Source of the DNA: Halorubrum ezzemoulense DSM 17463
Lineage (GTDB): Archaea; Halobacteriota; Halobacteria; Halobacteriales; Haloferacaceae
Direction of reading: 5' to 3'
Assembly (NCBI RefSeq): GCF_002114285.1
Contig: NZ_NEDJ01000032.1
Location: 1-35,791 of the forward strand
DNA length: 35,791 nucleotides
Below are positions 4,486 to 9,242 of the stretch, one piece after another. Positions within the stretch are counted from its first letter, which is position 1; each line of letters opens with the position of its first letter. Both the position numbers and the translations under genes were made by a program. The notes under the pieces were generated by a model. The model was given only the letters and a program-made list of their open reading frames with translations, made no database searches and was not told the origin of the DNA.

Positions 4486-5520
4486 TCACGCGAAGAGTCG
4501 GTAGACGTTCGCCTCGTAAACCTCCCGGACCTGATCCCCCCAGTTGTGCGTGTACGTGTCGATCACGTCGTCGGCGACATCGCCGCGGAGGTACTTAACC
4601 ACTCCGCGGTCGCCGGTTCTGTCGCGGAGGTGCGTCGTGAAGAAGTGGCGGAAGTAGTGGGGCGTGACGTTCTCGTCGGCGCCGCCGCCGGTCCGGTACC
4701 ACCCCTCCTCGCGGGCGTGCCGCTCGACGACGTGTCTGACCGCCTGCGGTTCCAATCGTTCCCCCCATCCCTCCGCGGTGCCGACGAACAGCGGCTCAGC
4801 CGGCGACGGCGAGTCCGGACGCACCGCGAGCCACGCCTTCAGCGCTCTGCGGAGTTCGTCGTCGACCGGGATCACCGTCCCGCGCTTCCGTTTGTTCGCG
4901 GCCGTTCGCACCTCCCCGTTCAGCTCCTCGCCGACGGTCGCCTCGGCGGTCACGAAAATCGAGTCCGGCCGTTCGGACAGCGCCGGGCGTCCCCCGAGCG
5001 AGTACGCCGCGTTGAGGAGGTCCGGGTCGCTGACCGACAGGTCTCGCAGGTCGAGGTTACACAGCTCGCCGACCCGCATGCCGGTCTTGAGGAGCGTCAC
5101 CACCAGCGCGCGGTGGAGCGGGTGCCGGATTCCGGCGACGAACGAGCGCATCGCAGAGACCGAGACGTCGCGGCGGGCCGGGTCCTTATCGACGGTCTCG
5201 TCCATTTCCTCCATCACCAGCGTCATCGGGTTACCGTCGAAGGCCTTTACCTCCGTCATGTACCCGTAAAACCGGTGGAGGTACGCCGCGTACGTCGCGA
5301 CCGTGCTGTCGGCGACGTCACCCCGCAGCGAGTGGACGAACGCCATACAGTCGCGGTGCGTCGCGGCCTCCGGATCAACGTCGTCCAAGAACGCCTCGAA
5401 CCGCCGGAGAACGCGCTCGTACGCCGCCCTGGTCCGGTCCGTCTTTCCGTGGTAGGTGAGGTCTTCGAGGAAGTAGCCGACGGGGTCGTCGGGGTCCGGA
5501 GACGCTCTCGCGCTACTCAT
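4486..5520 (-). CDS. Tyrosine recombinase / Xer-like site-specific integrase
   Basis: This 344-residue DNA strand-exchange enzyme has an N-terminal SAM-like DNA-binding domain (about 15-95, including RAAYERVLRRFEAFL). The catalytic domain follows with the first Arg in TGMRVGEL (R149), a basic beta-hairpin region NKRKRGTV (about 209-216), HYFR (H288, R291) and the nucleophile in DTYTHNW (Y323). The usual GH before the tyrosine is replaced by RGD (LRGDVADDVIDTY). It overlaps the upstream DUF5805-like gene by 8 bases. No tRNA gene, duplicated target or phage gene is nearby, so it looks like a resident chromosomal recombinase rather than the integrase of a recent element. Its natural target is unknown. 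Confidence 0.88.
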   Translation of the reverse strand: MSSARASPDPDDPVGYFLEDLTYHGKTDRTRAAYERVLRRFEAFLDDVDPEAATHRDCMAFVHSLRGDVADSTVATYAAYLHRFYGYMTEVKAFDGNPMTLVMEEMDETVDKDPARRDVSVSAMRSFVAGIRHPLHRALVVTLLKTGMRVGELCNLDLRDLSVSDPDLLNAAYSLGGRPALSERPDSIFVTAEATVGEELNGEVRTAANKRKRGTVIPVDDELRRALKAWLAVRPDSPSPAEPLFVGTAEGWGERLEPQAVRHVVERHAREEGWYRTGGGADENVTPHYFRHFFTTHLRDRTGDRGVVKYLRGDVADDVIDTYTHNWGDQVREVYEANVYRLFA

Positions 5521-5893
5521 CGGTCAACACGTACCCCCCTTCTCGGCCGCTGTACCGGATCCGATTGCGCTCCTGTAGCTCGTCGAGGGTCTCCTCCAGT
5601 TCGTCCTCCACGTCGCCGACCACCGCTTGGACGAGTTCGTCCCACGAGCGGGGCCCCGATTCGAGAGCCGCGTGGACGCGCTTTTCGAGGTCGCTACCCC
5701 CGGGGTCGGCGGGCTCGGAAGGGGGCTCCTCCCGACCTTCCGATCCGGTCGGCGCGAACCCCCTCCGCCCGGCCTGAACCATCGTCCTGACGAACTCGCT
5801 CAGCGACATGTCGAGCTCGTCGGCGTGGTCGCGCCACACGTCCTTCTGTTCCGTCGGCACGTACGTCTTCACCGACTGTCGATCGCCTCCCAT
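5513..5893 (-). CDS. DUF5805-like ribbon-helix-helix / winged-helix protein
   Basis: This 126-residue protein is encoded just before the recombinase. Residues 6-45 (SVKTYVPTEQKDVWRDHADE, then LDMSLSEFVRTMVQAG) fit a ribbon-helix-helix DNA-binding domain. An acidic Pro/Gly linker covers about 46-68. Residues 69-126 (LEKRVHAALESGPRSWDEL ending YVLTDE) look like a winged helix. I recognise this layout as the haloarchaeal DUF5805 family, from memory. It probably serves as a repressor of the operon or an accessory factor of the recombinase. The stop lies 8 bases inside the recombinase gene. Inverted repeats upstream are plausible binding sites. Confidence 0.8.
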   Translation of the reverse strand: MGGDRQSVKTYVPTEQKDVWRDHADELDMSLSEFVRTMVQAGRRGFAPTGSEGREEPPSEPADPGGSDLEKRVHAALESGPRSWDELVQAVVGDVEDELEETLDELQERNRIRYSGREGGYVLTDE

Positions 5894-5932
5894 CGTTCTC
5901 GGACGACCGTTCTCGCTGCCGTGACTTCAATC

Positions 5933-5963
5933 TATCCTAGATTTCTGGATAAGTGACCTTATC
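5933..5963. promoter_or_regulatory. Two overlapping inverted repeats, candidate operator of the DUF5805-recombinase operon
   Basis: A perfect repeat GATAAG-TGAC-CTTATC occupies 5948-5963. It overlaps TATCC-N9-GGATA at 5933-5951. A further TTATCC lies at 6002-6007. The sites are 40-114 bases before the DUF5805-like start at 5893. Ribbon-helix-helix regulators bind such short palindromes, so autoregulation is a reasonable inference, not shown. Confidence 0.45.
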
Positions 5964-6221
5964 TCAGTGAGCAGGACCACATTTTGGCCGGGTTGAGTTT
6001 ATTATCCAACTCTCTAGCACCATTAGTTCCAACCACTAGTTATACAATCCAAGATATTCGATTGGGACACGCGATTCCCAACGGGCGGCAATGTGAATCT
6101 GATCGGCCCCGGATGTCGTCCGTCGGCCCAATCGCTTTCCCCGCTCTGCGCGAGCCGTTCGGTGCGGCGACGAGAGTCGTAGTGCGAGAACGCTGGGGTA
6201 ACTGGCGATAGTACTCGGCGG

Positions 6222-6307: not shown

Positions 6308-7213
6308 TCAGACGCGGATCTCCGAGTCGGCCGCCTCTCGTTCGAGCGCCCAGAGGACGCGGGAGACCGAATCGTCGGCCTCGGCCGCGTTACGCATCAG
6401 GACCGTCTCGCTCGGGAAGAGGTGTTCCCCGACGGCGAGTCCGTGTTCGCGCGCCGTCGAGCCGGTGACGGTGAGGTAGACGCCGAGACCGACCCTGGCT
6501 ATCGCCGCCTCCTCCTCCTCGTCGGCCTCCGGGTAGACGAACTCCACCCCGTCGAGCGCGTCGGTCCCTAACACGGCAGTGACGAGGCGCTCGTACCGCG
6601 GCGAGATACACAGCGACCCCTCGTAGTCGGCCAGATACGCGCGGTCGTACGTCTCTCCCGGTCTGCGTCGGTCCTCGCGTCCCATCAGCGTGTGGTACAC
6701 CGTGTCACCGAGACCGGTCACCACGCGCACGTCGGTGTCGACCGGGTCGATCCGGTCGTTGATGTCCGAGATGTCGCCGAGTCCGCCCCCTCGGATCCCG
6801 ACGACCTCCTCTAAGACGAGGTCGGCGGAGTCGAATCCGAGCGCGAACTCGTGGGTTCGGAGCGCACGGAACGGTTCCTCGCGGCCGACGAGCTTGACCG
6901 TCACGTCGCCGAGATCCACCGTGGCGGCGTCGAACACGATTCGCCGCGGCTTGCCGTCCCGGTCGTCGCGCAGCAGCGTGTACTCCGGTTCGGCCGCCGT
7001 CGTCGGGTCAGAGTACTCCGCGAGCCGCTCGTACGGGCCCTCGTCGGCGTCGACCGACCCCTTCGTGACGGCCTTCTCGTATCGGAGCGTGTTGCTCACG
7101 CCGTCCGCGAGCCGGTCGAGGCGGTCGTCGCTCGCGACGGTCGCGATCCGCTCTAAGACCGCTTCGAGCGGGCGCCCCTTCCGGGGCACGGCGACCGGGA
7201 CCGGGTCTGTCAT
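6308..7213 (-). CDS. HisG-like (ATP phosphoribosyltransferase-fold) protein of unknown function
   Basis: This 301-residue protein carries the signature ends of HisG: VAVPRKGRPLEAVLERI at residues 7-23 and VYLTVTGSTAREHGL at about 245-259, corresponding to the IVD-xx-STGxTLxxNGL PRPP-binding segment. The region VRVVTGLGDTVYH (162-174) fits the second HisG strand. The acidic residues expected before the TG motif are replaced by Gly and Tyr, and the usual Asn after it is His258, so normal PRPP chemistry is doubtful. Residues 52-100 hold a lineage-specific stretch. The ATG at 7213 was chosen because a TATA-like element sits 24-29 bases upstream and the longer frame is low-complexity. No histidine genes are nearby. 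Confidence 0.7.
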   Translation of the reverse strand: MTDPVPVAVPRKGRPLEAVLERIATVASDDRLDRLADGVSNTLRYEKAVTKGSVDADEGPYERLAEYSDPTTAAEPEYTLLRDDRDGKPRRIVFDAATVDLGDVTVKLVGREEPFRALRTHEFALGFDSADLVLEEVVGIRGGGLGDISDINDRIDPVDTDVRVVTGLGDTVYHTLMGREDRRRPGETYDRAYLADYEGSLCISPRYERLVTAVLGTDALDGVEFVYPEADEEEEAAIARVGLGVYLTVTGSTAREHGLAVGEHLFPSETVLMRNAAEADDSVSRVLWALEREAADSEIRV

Positions 7214-7236
7214 TGCCCCATCTGCGACCGCGCGCG

Positions 7237-7242
7237 TAAAAC
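7237..7242 (-). promoter_or_regulatory. TATA-like box of the HisG-like gene
   Basis: On the minus strand GTTTTACG lies about 25-30 bases before the ATG at 7213. This fits a leaderless transcript and supports that start over the longer upstream frame. Confidence 0.45.
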
Positions 7243-7313
7243 GGGTTGCGTTTTTCAACCGGGGTGCCGCCGACGGCGTTCGGCGTCGCCGCTCGATCGT
7301 CGAAACGGAGCGG

Positions 7314-9242
7314 CTACGGGCCGAACGCCTCGTTGAGCCGGGTACGGAACTCGTCGAGCTCGTCGAGGTGGTCGTTGATCTCATCTAGCTCGGCGGCAAC
7401 GTCGTCGAGGTCCTCTCCGAGCCGGTCCTCGATGTCGGTGAGCCGGCTGTCCACCTCCGCGAGGTCGTCCCACAGGTCGTCGAATTCCTCGTCGAAGCGG
7501 GCGAGTCCGGACTCCACGTCGTCGACGCGCTCCGCGACGCCGGCCGCGCGGTCCTCGGCGCTTTCGGCCCGCTCTTCGGCGTTCTCGGCGCGTTCGGCCG
7601 CCCTGTCGACCTCCTCGTACAGCGTCTCCACGTCGTCGCCTAGGTCGTCGACCGTCTCCGCGGCGGCGTCCGCCGTCCCCTCCACCCGGTCGACGTCGTC
7701 GGCGAGGTCTTCGACGTCGCTCTCGACGGCCGAGACGCCGTCTCGGACCGACTCGACGGTTTCCTCGACGGACGCGACCTCGTCCTCCACGCCGCGCACG
7801 TCACCTTCCACGCTGCGAACGTCGTCTTCGACCGCCTGTACGTCGTCTTCGACCGCCTGTACGTCGTCTTCCACGCCGCGCACGTCGTCTTCGACCGCCT
7901 GTACGTCGTCTTCCACGCCGCGCACGTCGTCTTCGACCGCATCGAGGTCGGTCTCGACGGTCTCCACGCGCTCGTCGACCGCATCGACCGCGTCGGAGGT
8001 CGACGCGACCGCGGAGTCGACGCGGGCGACGTCCGACTCGATCTCCTCGCGATCGTCTTCCGCGTCGTCGAGGCGATCGTCGAGGGCGTCGACCTCGGAC
8101 TCGACGGCGTCCACACGCTCGTCGATCCCGTCGAGGATCTCTCGGGCGGTCCCCTCGCCGTCGATGAACTCCGCGAGCGCGTCGGCGTACGCCTCGATGT
8201 CGGCCACGCTCGACTGGAGTCGAGCGATCCGCACGTCGACGCTGCGCGGCACGCTCGCGTCGAACGCCCTCTCGATGGTCTCGATGTCCTCCTCGTCGGC
8301 CGCCCCGGTGCGGATCTCGGCCGCTAACGCGGCCGCGAGACCGCCTTCGCCCGGAAGACTCGCCTCGTCCGTCTCGTCGGTTTCGTCGAGTTCGTCGGCT
8401 TCCGTTCCGTCTTCGTCGGCTTCCGTTCCGTCTTCGTCGGCGACTTCCGGCTCGTCTTCGACGGCCGACTCGGCGGCTGTGTCGTCTGTTTCGGGCGTTT
8501 CGTCGGGCTCATCGGCAGGGGTTGTCTCTTCGGCTCCGGCCTCGGGTTCGACCGCGGCGCCGACCGATTCCCCCTCATGTGGGGACACCGCGGCCGTCCC
8601 GTTGTCGGCGACCGTTCGCGGCTCGGGGGTGTCGGGCTCAGGATCGGCCTCGGTTTCGCGGCCGGCGGCGGCTTCCGTGGCGCTCTCTGCCTCCGGTTCC
8701 GGTTCCGCCGCGGGTTCCGGGCCGGGATCGCGGGCCGAGGCGCCCTCACCGGACTCCGCGGGGTCTCCCGCCAACAGTTCGTCCTCTTCCGCCATTCCGG
8801 GGAGCGTCGCGCGGTCGCCGGAGAGCACCTCTCGGACGGCGTCCGTGTCGCCGGCGCCGAGGACGTCTTCGATCTCCTCGCCGACCGGCACGTGTTCGAT
8901 CACCGGCGTGCCGAGGAACCCGTCGAGGTCGGGGTCGTCGTCGCGGATCCCGAACACCGTCTCGACGGTCTCGTCGGGGTCTATCACCCGTTCGAACTCC
9001 ACGCGGTGGTCCTTGTACGCGGTCCAGTTCTCGCTCTCGTACTCCGGGTGGAACCCCACTCGGTCCATCGGGAACGACTCCGGGATCCGGTCGACGATAC
9101 GCACCCGTACGGGGTCCTCACGGTGTGAGGAGAGGGTGTACATCACCGCCGGCACGGGGAACGCGTCGTCCGTGAAGGATTTCTCGACGCGGATGCCGTC
9201 CTCGTCGACGGTCGTGGCCGCCTCCGCCGTCCGTTCGCTCAT
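7314..9242 (-). CDS. Large acidic coiled-coil protein, haloarchaeal, function unknown
   Basis: This 642-residue protein has three parts. An N-terminal globular domain (about 10-115) contains GIRVEKSFTDDAFPVPAV and SENWTAYKDHRVEFERV. A long low-complexity Glu/Ala/Thr/Pro-rich region spans about 150-300. A long coiled coil (about 330-640) includes tandem heptads of the VEDDVRG / VEDDVQA type (near 432-482). There is no signal peptide or membrane segment. It resembles haloarchaeal proteins with a conserved head and a spacer-like rod; a structural or chromosome-associated role is speculation. A TATA-like ATTTAAG lies 24-30 bases before the ATG. The gene stands alone between the HisG-like and MBL-fold genes on the same strand. 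Confidence 0.85.
   Translation of the reverse strand: MSERTAEAATTVDEDGIRVEKSFTDDAFPVPAVMYTLSSHREDPVRVRIVDRIPESFPMDRVGFHPEYESENWTAYKDHRVEFERVIDPDETVETVFGIRDDDPDLDGFLGTPVIEHVPVGEEIEDVLGAGDTDAVREVLSGDRATLPGMAEEDELLAGDPAESGEGASARDPGPEPAAEPEPEAESATEAAAGRETEADPEPDTPEPRTVADNGTAAVSPHEGESVGAAVEPEAGAEETTPADEPDETPETDDTAAESAVEDEPEVADEDGTEADEDGTEADELDETDETDEASLPGEGGLAAALAAEIRTGAADEEDIETIERAFDASVPRSVDVRIARLQSSVADIEAYADALAEFIDGEGTAREILDGIDERVDAVESEVDALDDRLDDAEDDREEIESDVARVDSAVASTSDAVDAVDERVETVETDLDAVEDDVRGVEDDVQAVEDDVRGVEDDVQAVEDDVQAVEDDVRSVEGDVRGVEDEVASVEETVESVRDGVSAVESDVEDLADDVDRVEGTADAAAETVDDLGDDVETLYEEVDRAAERAENAEERAESAEDRAAGVAERVDDVESGLARFDEEFDDLWDDLAEVDSRLTDIEDRLGEDLDDVAAELDEINDHLDELDEFRTRLNEAFGP
7797..7950. 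repeat. 21-bp tandem repeats encoding heptads
   Basis: About seven imperfect 21-base units alternate two types, one coding VEDDVQA (plus-strand GTCGTCTTCGACCGCCTGTAC, here given only as type) and one coding VEDDVRG. Units are nearly identical in DNA, indicating recent expansion or correction. The repeat stays in frame, so copy-number change would only lengthen or shorten the rod by heptads. Confidence 0.8.

Follow-up and report, generated by a model that had tools for sequence, protein, structure and literature searches.

Sites of the dif type have a known geometry of 28 bp, with two 11-bp arms around a 6-bp spacer (PMC2958812, PMC8371274). In bacteria, they are served by two recombinases, XerC and XerD, and by FtsK. 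The XerS/dif-SL system of Lactococcus and Streptococcus has a single recombinase with its site at or close to its gene, and XerS remains FtsK-dependent (PMC2958812). In archaea, XerA/dif has been described in Pyrococcus abyssi and Thermoplasma acidophilum (Cortez 2010, PMC2958812). The dif of Thermococcales does not adjoin xerA and has inverted-repeat flanks, suggested to be partner binding sites, P. abyssi XerA recombined dif in vitro free of any partner, and the dif of Sulfolobales lies near xerA (PMC2958812). Archaea are devoid of FtsK, and no equivalent system has been identified (PMC8371274). Haloferax volcanii possesses 12 XerC/D-like genes, four of which proved dispensable for viability; no dif is known, and the role of these enzymes in termination remains to be determined (2020 review, PMC7776575). 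A haloarchaeal pleolipovirus encodes another tyrosine recombinase, IntSNJ2, a viral integrase with a tRNA site, in an operon with the small accessory proteins Orf2 and Orf3, which stimulate it; of the two, one is a coiled-coil protein and the other MarR-like, and many relatives do without them (PMC8371274). In the literature searched, we came across no description of DUF5805 or of a dif in haloarchaea.

We analysed a stretch of 35,791 nucleotides from Halorubrum ezzemoulense DSM 17463 (contig NZ_NEDJ01000032.1; hereafter the window), in which a DUF5805 gene precedes the gene of an Xer-type tyrosine recombinase, with a dif-like palindrome in front of both. Like the archaeal XerA/dif systems, this locus combines a XerA-like fold with a 28-bp 11-6-11 site, and the site is flanked by inverted repeats as in Thermococcales. 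In contrast to XerA, the haloarchaeal recombinase forms a separate subfamily with RGD at the H/W position; unlike the dif of Thermococcales, its site lies in its own promoter, and unlike the P. abyssi enzyme it has a dedicated gene for a predicted RHH protein. A single recombinase with a site at its gene is shared with XerS/dif-SL and Sulfolobales, but no RHH partner gene has been described there (PMC2958812). With IntSNJ2, the locus shares a haloarchaeal tyrosine recombinase in an operon with a small accessory protein, and differs by being neither viral nor bound to a tRNA. Finally, it shares with bacterial XerC/D-dif-FtsK the site geometry and the presumed role, with one recombinase instead of two and a predicted RHH protein instead of FtsK.

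The two genes and their products

The overlapping pair of a predicted RHH/winged-helix protein and a tyrosine recombinase, which the earlier note had read from the letters of the window, is real. Both ORFs lie on the reverse strand, at 5513-5893 for the DUF5805 gene, the upstream member, and at 4486-5520 for xer, with an overlap of 8 bp in the ORF check of the window. The DUF5805 protein (126 aa) matches PF19121 in its C-terminal half with 102.8 bits, for a Pfam gathering score of 28.5. In its AlphaFold2 model (mean pLDDT 81), an RHH-like N-terminal half with helices at 14-26 and 31-44 is joined through a disordered stretch (46-65) to a winged helix at the C-terminus; K9 and Y11 are the predicted reading residues of the RHH. 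An RHH consists of a beta strand and two helices, with residues of the strand contacting the DNA; of these elements, the model has the two helices. The matches of the RHH half in Foldseek were weak, with CdbA (probability 0.91) and Arc (0.84) among them and all E-values at least 0.001.

The recombinase (344 aa) matches Phage_integrase (PF00589) with 62.2 bits, for a gathering score of 27.1, and also has a SAM-like N-domain. Foldseek placed 4a8e (P. abyssi Xer; E=1.9e-9) and then 5hxy (T. acidophilum XerA) at the top, and by sequence as well as by fold its closest solved relatives are XerA proteins. Against the NCBIfam model recomb_XerA_Arch (NF040815), it scored 108.6 bits, below the curated cut-off of 220, and none of 39 haloarchaeal genomes held a XerA above this cut-off. 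The remaining recombinases of these 39 haloarchaea were numerous and patchy. The catalytic residues R149, K210, H288, R291, and Y323 were invariant across 55 orthologues, and so was the RGD motif (312-314; 55/55). This puts Asp314, in all 55, at the position of the sixth catalytic residue, which is H or W in XerA/Xer, leaving the set R-K-H-R-[H/W]-Y incomplete in haloarchaeal Xer. While the R, HxxR, and Tyr residues pointed out earlier hold throughout, the RGD proposed as a peculiarity does not stand: since 17/17 other archaeal integrases checked also have it, the motif is no sign of special chemistry, and we rejected it as a functional oddity.

Distribution and context of the pair

Xer orthologues were found in all 145 sampled high-quality haloarchaeal genomes and DUF5805 in 144 of them, and the only DUF5805-negative genome (L057) still has a weak DUF5805-like ORF upstream of xer. 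As a control in the profile search, DUF5805 was found in Haloferax volcanii. The DUF5805 gene stood directly 5' of xer on the same strand in 141/141 loci read, mostly with an overlap of a few bases, and the pair was chromosomal except in two plasmid records. Inside the class, the best Xer matches reached 440-612 bits, versus about 75-90 bits in the other classes of the phylum. By this distribution, the DUF5805-xer pair is core to the class Halobacteria, a resident two-gene system and not part of an island, as had been proposed. The window contains no tRNA, no phage-borne relatives of Xer were found among the phage and viral records searched, and neither an inserted element nor a complete att duplication was seen at typical loci, in agreement with the earlier description of surroundings free of tRNA and phage genes. 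In the synteny comparison across Halobacteria, the genes around the adjacent pair changed from lineage to lineage. The statement that it sits among core genes is consequently limited to some Halorubrum, where ftsY is nearby, because the neighbours differ elsewhere; ftsY synteny, confined to Halorubrum, was rejected as a functional clue.

Two neighbours in the window may be described here. The protein encoded at 6308-7294 (reverse strand) belongs to no Pfam or NCBIfam family above cut-off; in most Halorubrum, and likewise in L043-L047, it is a neighbour of the pair, and it lies a few kb away in L064, L068, L069, and L073. The gene at 7314-9242 (reverse strand), upstream of the pair in Halorubrum, encodes an acidic protein of 642 aa with a long heptad-like coiled coil and weak matches to SMC and archaea-specific SMC-related profiles.

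A dif-like site in the promoter region

A search for conserved palindromes near the pair, one of the checks proposed at the outset, revealed a dif-like 11-6-11 site at 5942-5969. This putative Xer site reads TTTCTGGATAA-GTGACC-TTATCTCAGTG on the forward strand, with the spacer at 5953-5958 (GGTCAC on the gene strand). It lies just outside the segment covered by the earlier note, roughly 70 bp 5' of the DUF5805 start codon in almost all lineages (-66 to -76 in most). Its geometry is that of dif, 28 bp with 11-bp arms, a 6-bp spacer, and inner arms ATAA/TTAT; E. coli dif is likewise ATAA-N6-TTAT. Changes in the arms were compensated on both sides, giving GATAA/TTATC, AATAA/TTATT, GATTA/TAATC, TCTTA/TAAGA, and GATCA/TGATC, and in Haloferax relatives ACTCAGGATAACTTCTCTTATTCTGGAC is located some 70 bp 5' of the DUF5805-linked xer unit. 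Palindrome scores of single loci were mostly non-significant against shuffles, and the case for the palindrome comes from its fixed position, its conservation, and the compensated arm changes.

The site occurs across the class and is essentially single-copy per Halorubrum genome; class-wide, a strict sequence pattern was used, and one site per genome was found. It thereby has what defines an Xer/dif site, namely 28 bp, two 11-bp inverted arms, a 6-bp spacer, and uniqueness on the chromosome. A 37-bp query detected no copy on plasmids, and none was detected on secondary replicons, which would also need resolution. No clear site was present at the standard place in the deep-branching L057-L059, nor in L055, L091, and L111. 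In L057, L058, and L059, a TCTAAYGTTAGA-like sequence beside the start codon replaces the usual palindrome, and Xer has Glu33.

Two other kinds of matches were rejected. The sequence AATAAGCCTTCTTATC, which recurred as a further match in Halorubrum and elsewhere, is not a second dif but the region just 5' of secF; in L074-L080, from Halorubrum and other families, a conserved AATAAGNNNNCTTATC palindrome just 5' of secF is probably a promoter. Exact-pattern matches in IMG/VR were rejected as virus-borne dif copies and attributed to chance, because they lie in low-GC or phage coding repeats. In the viral contigs L302, L314, L275, and L296, ATAAGTGACCTTATCC is repeated many times, often with a spacing of about 141 bp; these are coding repeats, each of some 47 residues, and have no relation to dif.

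Between the palindrome and the genes, a conserved TTGAAG element (5925-5930, reverse strand) marks the likely position of the core promoter. In nearly all loci it follows the palindrome by 9-12 bp, and its usual distance to the start codon is 23-31 bp. The palindrome is bordered by two predicted DUF5805 half-sites on the reverse strand, the right one on the promoter side at 5935-5941 (gene strand TCTAGGA; base +5 is the G at 5937) and the left one, an inverted copy, at 5970-5976 (TCCTGCT; base -5 is the C at 5974). The composite site would therefore run in the order DUF5805 half-site, Xer arm, spacer, Xer arm, DUF5805 half-site, TTGAAG.

Covariation of both proteins with the site

We scanned for couplings between the 317 variable residue columns of both proteins and 68 bases centred on the site (21,556 pairs), using 131 loci with genus weighting and APC correction. 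The top coupling linked DUF5805 K9 to flank base +5 (z=11.7): residue 9 was K or R with G at +5 in 97/100 loci, and other residues went with non-G in 30/31. The second linked Xer R262 to arm base R5 (z=11.1; mirror base L5, z=7.4), and the fourth Xer A33 to arm base L2 (z=7.6). In a control scan of 30 bp upstream, the maximum was z 6.1, itself between K9 and flank -5, the mirror of +5. The flanks from +/-3 to +/-5 formed inverted repeats above expectation (54% versus 37% expected at +/-5), and an acidic Xer residue 33 went with xTTA arms in 13/13 resident loci. Phylogeny-aware pairs, few in number, all agreed with the direction predicted, hardly any running counter to it; independent-pair tests gave p ~0.03 for K9 and were under-powered for 262, with too few pairs. 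An initial covariation test, which sorted sites simply into ATAA and non-ATAA, gave a result bordering on its permutation null; the full residue-by-base scan was decisive.

These couplings suggest that Xer reads the palindrome arms via positions 262 and 33, of which we take the former to be at the place of Cre E262 and of the XerD dif-binding motif and the latter to be near Cre M44. They also put DUF5805 on the flanks of the Xer palindrome, in keeping with the earlier suggestion that the small partner marks the site of the recombinase. Paralogous RHH-Xer pairs were seen in L339-L342 (Xer about 46-53% identical), with their own xTTA-N6-TAAx sites, located at -73/-74 of the RHH gene in L339-L341. 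Their Xer has Asp33, which together with the xTTA sites matches the acidic-33 rule of the resident loci.

Inversion of the spacer

In 35 Halorubrum species, the spacer matched either GGTCAC or GTGACC, which are exact reverse complements, with at most 1-2 bases differing, and no intermediates between the two orientations were found among them. On the tree of the pair, at least 10 orientation changes occurred in Halorubrum. For example, the arms of Hrr. salsamenti (L026) are identical to those of G030 (L027), with the spacer inverted between the two. Similar pairs exist in other genera (GGACTC/GAGTCC, GGGCAC/GTGCCC). The flips are the footprint that would be expected of strand exchange.

As a control, hairpins were compared in four Halorubrum species over about 200 kb each, most of them coding. 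This site was the sole noncoding hairpin found inverted, in 3/6 species pairs versus 0/97 comparisons of other noncoding hairpins. One further perfect hairpin, with a GAAG/CTTC loop, was also inverted, in DNA called coding by a crude map. The loops of perfect hairpins can invert through template switching, and because of this other hairpin such a process, uninformative on recombination, remains a rival for the flip evidence taken alone. We consider it rather unlikely, about the flips only, given the control counts and the arms at the Xer site, which are short, AT-rich, and imperfect.

Discussion

The dif site, the accessory gene, and the recombinase gene are best read as one cassette, a variant of Xer/dif. 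This locus probably encodes a haloarchaeal system for the resolution of chromosome multimers, with a composite site in its own promoter and a dedicated accessory protein, and chromosome-dimer resolution, one of the roles put forward in the earlier note, is kept as the most likely one. The pair is near-universal among the haloarchaea examined and adjoins a palindrome apparently read by both proteins, and so probably represents the long-missing chromosome-separating machinery of these cells. Xer monomers would occupy the two 11-bp arms and catalyse strand exchange at the edges of the 6-bp spacer. DUF5805 would bind via its RHH half to the short inverted repeats flanking the arms, and we propose that the synapse is framed in this way; DUF5805 may load Xer or determine the direction of recombination, like bacterial FtsK. 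Since the chromosome carries one site, a productive reaction would need the two copies present in a chromosome dimer or multimer, which would be converted into monomers. As the composite site is just 5' of the operon promoter, Xer and DUF5805, once bound, should also control their own expression; the site would then serve as an operator too, and DUF5805 would be both an accessory and a regulatory protein. A further proposal, plausible but tentative, is that DUF5805 dimers on both dif flanks build an accessory-dependent synapse licensing Xer in polyploid cells, which would solve the absence of FtsK with a cassette that regulates itself and can be exchanged as a unit between species. Some points speak against the Xer/dif reading: the high ploidy of haloarchaea makes a need for dimer resolution less than obvious, secondary replicons yielded no copy of the site, and the deep-branching L057-L059 have no recognisable site at its usual position.

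The palindrome could be solely an autoregulatory operator for Xer and DUF5805, the real recombination site, if any, lying elsewhere. Its fixed distance to the start codon, and to TTGAAG, is that of an operator and counts against the Xer/dif reading, and autorepression is frequent among RHH and winged-helix proteins. We nevertheless find this improbable, as covariation ties the arm bases to residues in each of the DNA-reading domains of Xer, the dif-type 6-bp spacer and its ATAA/TTAT edges are kept while the spacer sequence drifts, and recurrent spacer inversion is unexpected for an operator. Moreover, the dif and operator roles are compatible in one site.

Two loci bear on another possibility. 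In G106 (L068:7600-8620) and G130 (L343:2250-3300), a truncated resident pair lies head-to-head with a foreign DUF5805-Xer pair that has an AATAA-type palindrome of its own, which suggests that the site and the genes move together. Half-site remnants (e.g., TTCACAAATAAGGGCTC) near these foreign pairs hint at cassette replacement at the site. Such arrangements, the tyrosine recombinase fold, and the many related integrases of haloarchaea might be taken as signs of a domesticated or fossil integrase, whose old attachment site now takes in mobile elements. This is very unlikely: Xer is universal with its catalytic residues intact, it was absent from the phage records searched, typical loci show no inserted element or full att duplication, and the site is single-copy. 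Finally, a DNA inversion or phase switch, also raised in the earlier note, is hardly credible despite the spacer being inverted between species and the site lying within the promoter region, because a switch requires two inverted sites and only one was found per genome, of which only the 6-bp spacer inverts over evolution.

Under the Xer/dif reading, the present analysis names a recombinase found across the class, the partner protein that accompanies it, and a 28-bp site for which protein-base contacts are predicted, all of them testable in Haloferax or Halorubrum. This bears on which recombinase would resolve haloarchaeal chromosomes, and where. Because archaea have no FtsK and no equivalent has been identified (PMC8371274), DUF5805 is a candidate for the factor, missing so far, that controls Xer recombination in archaea.
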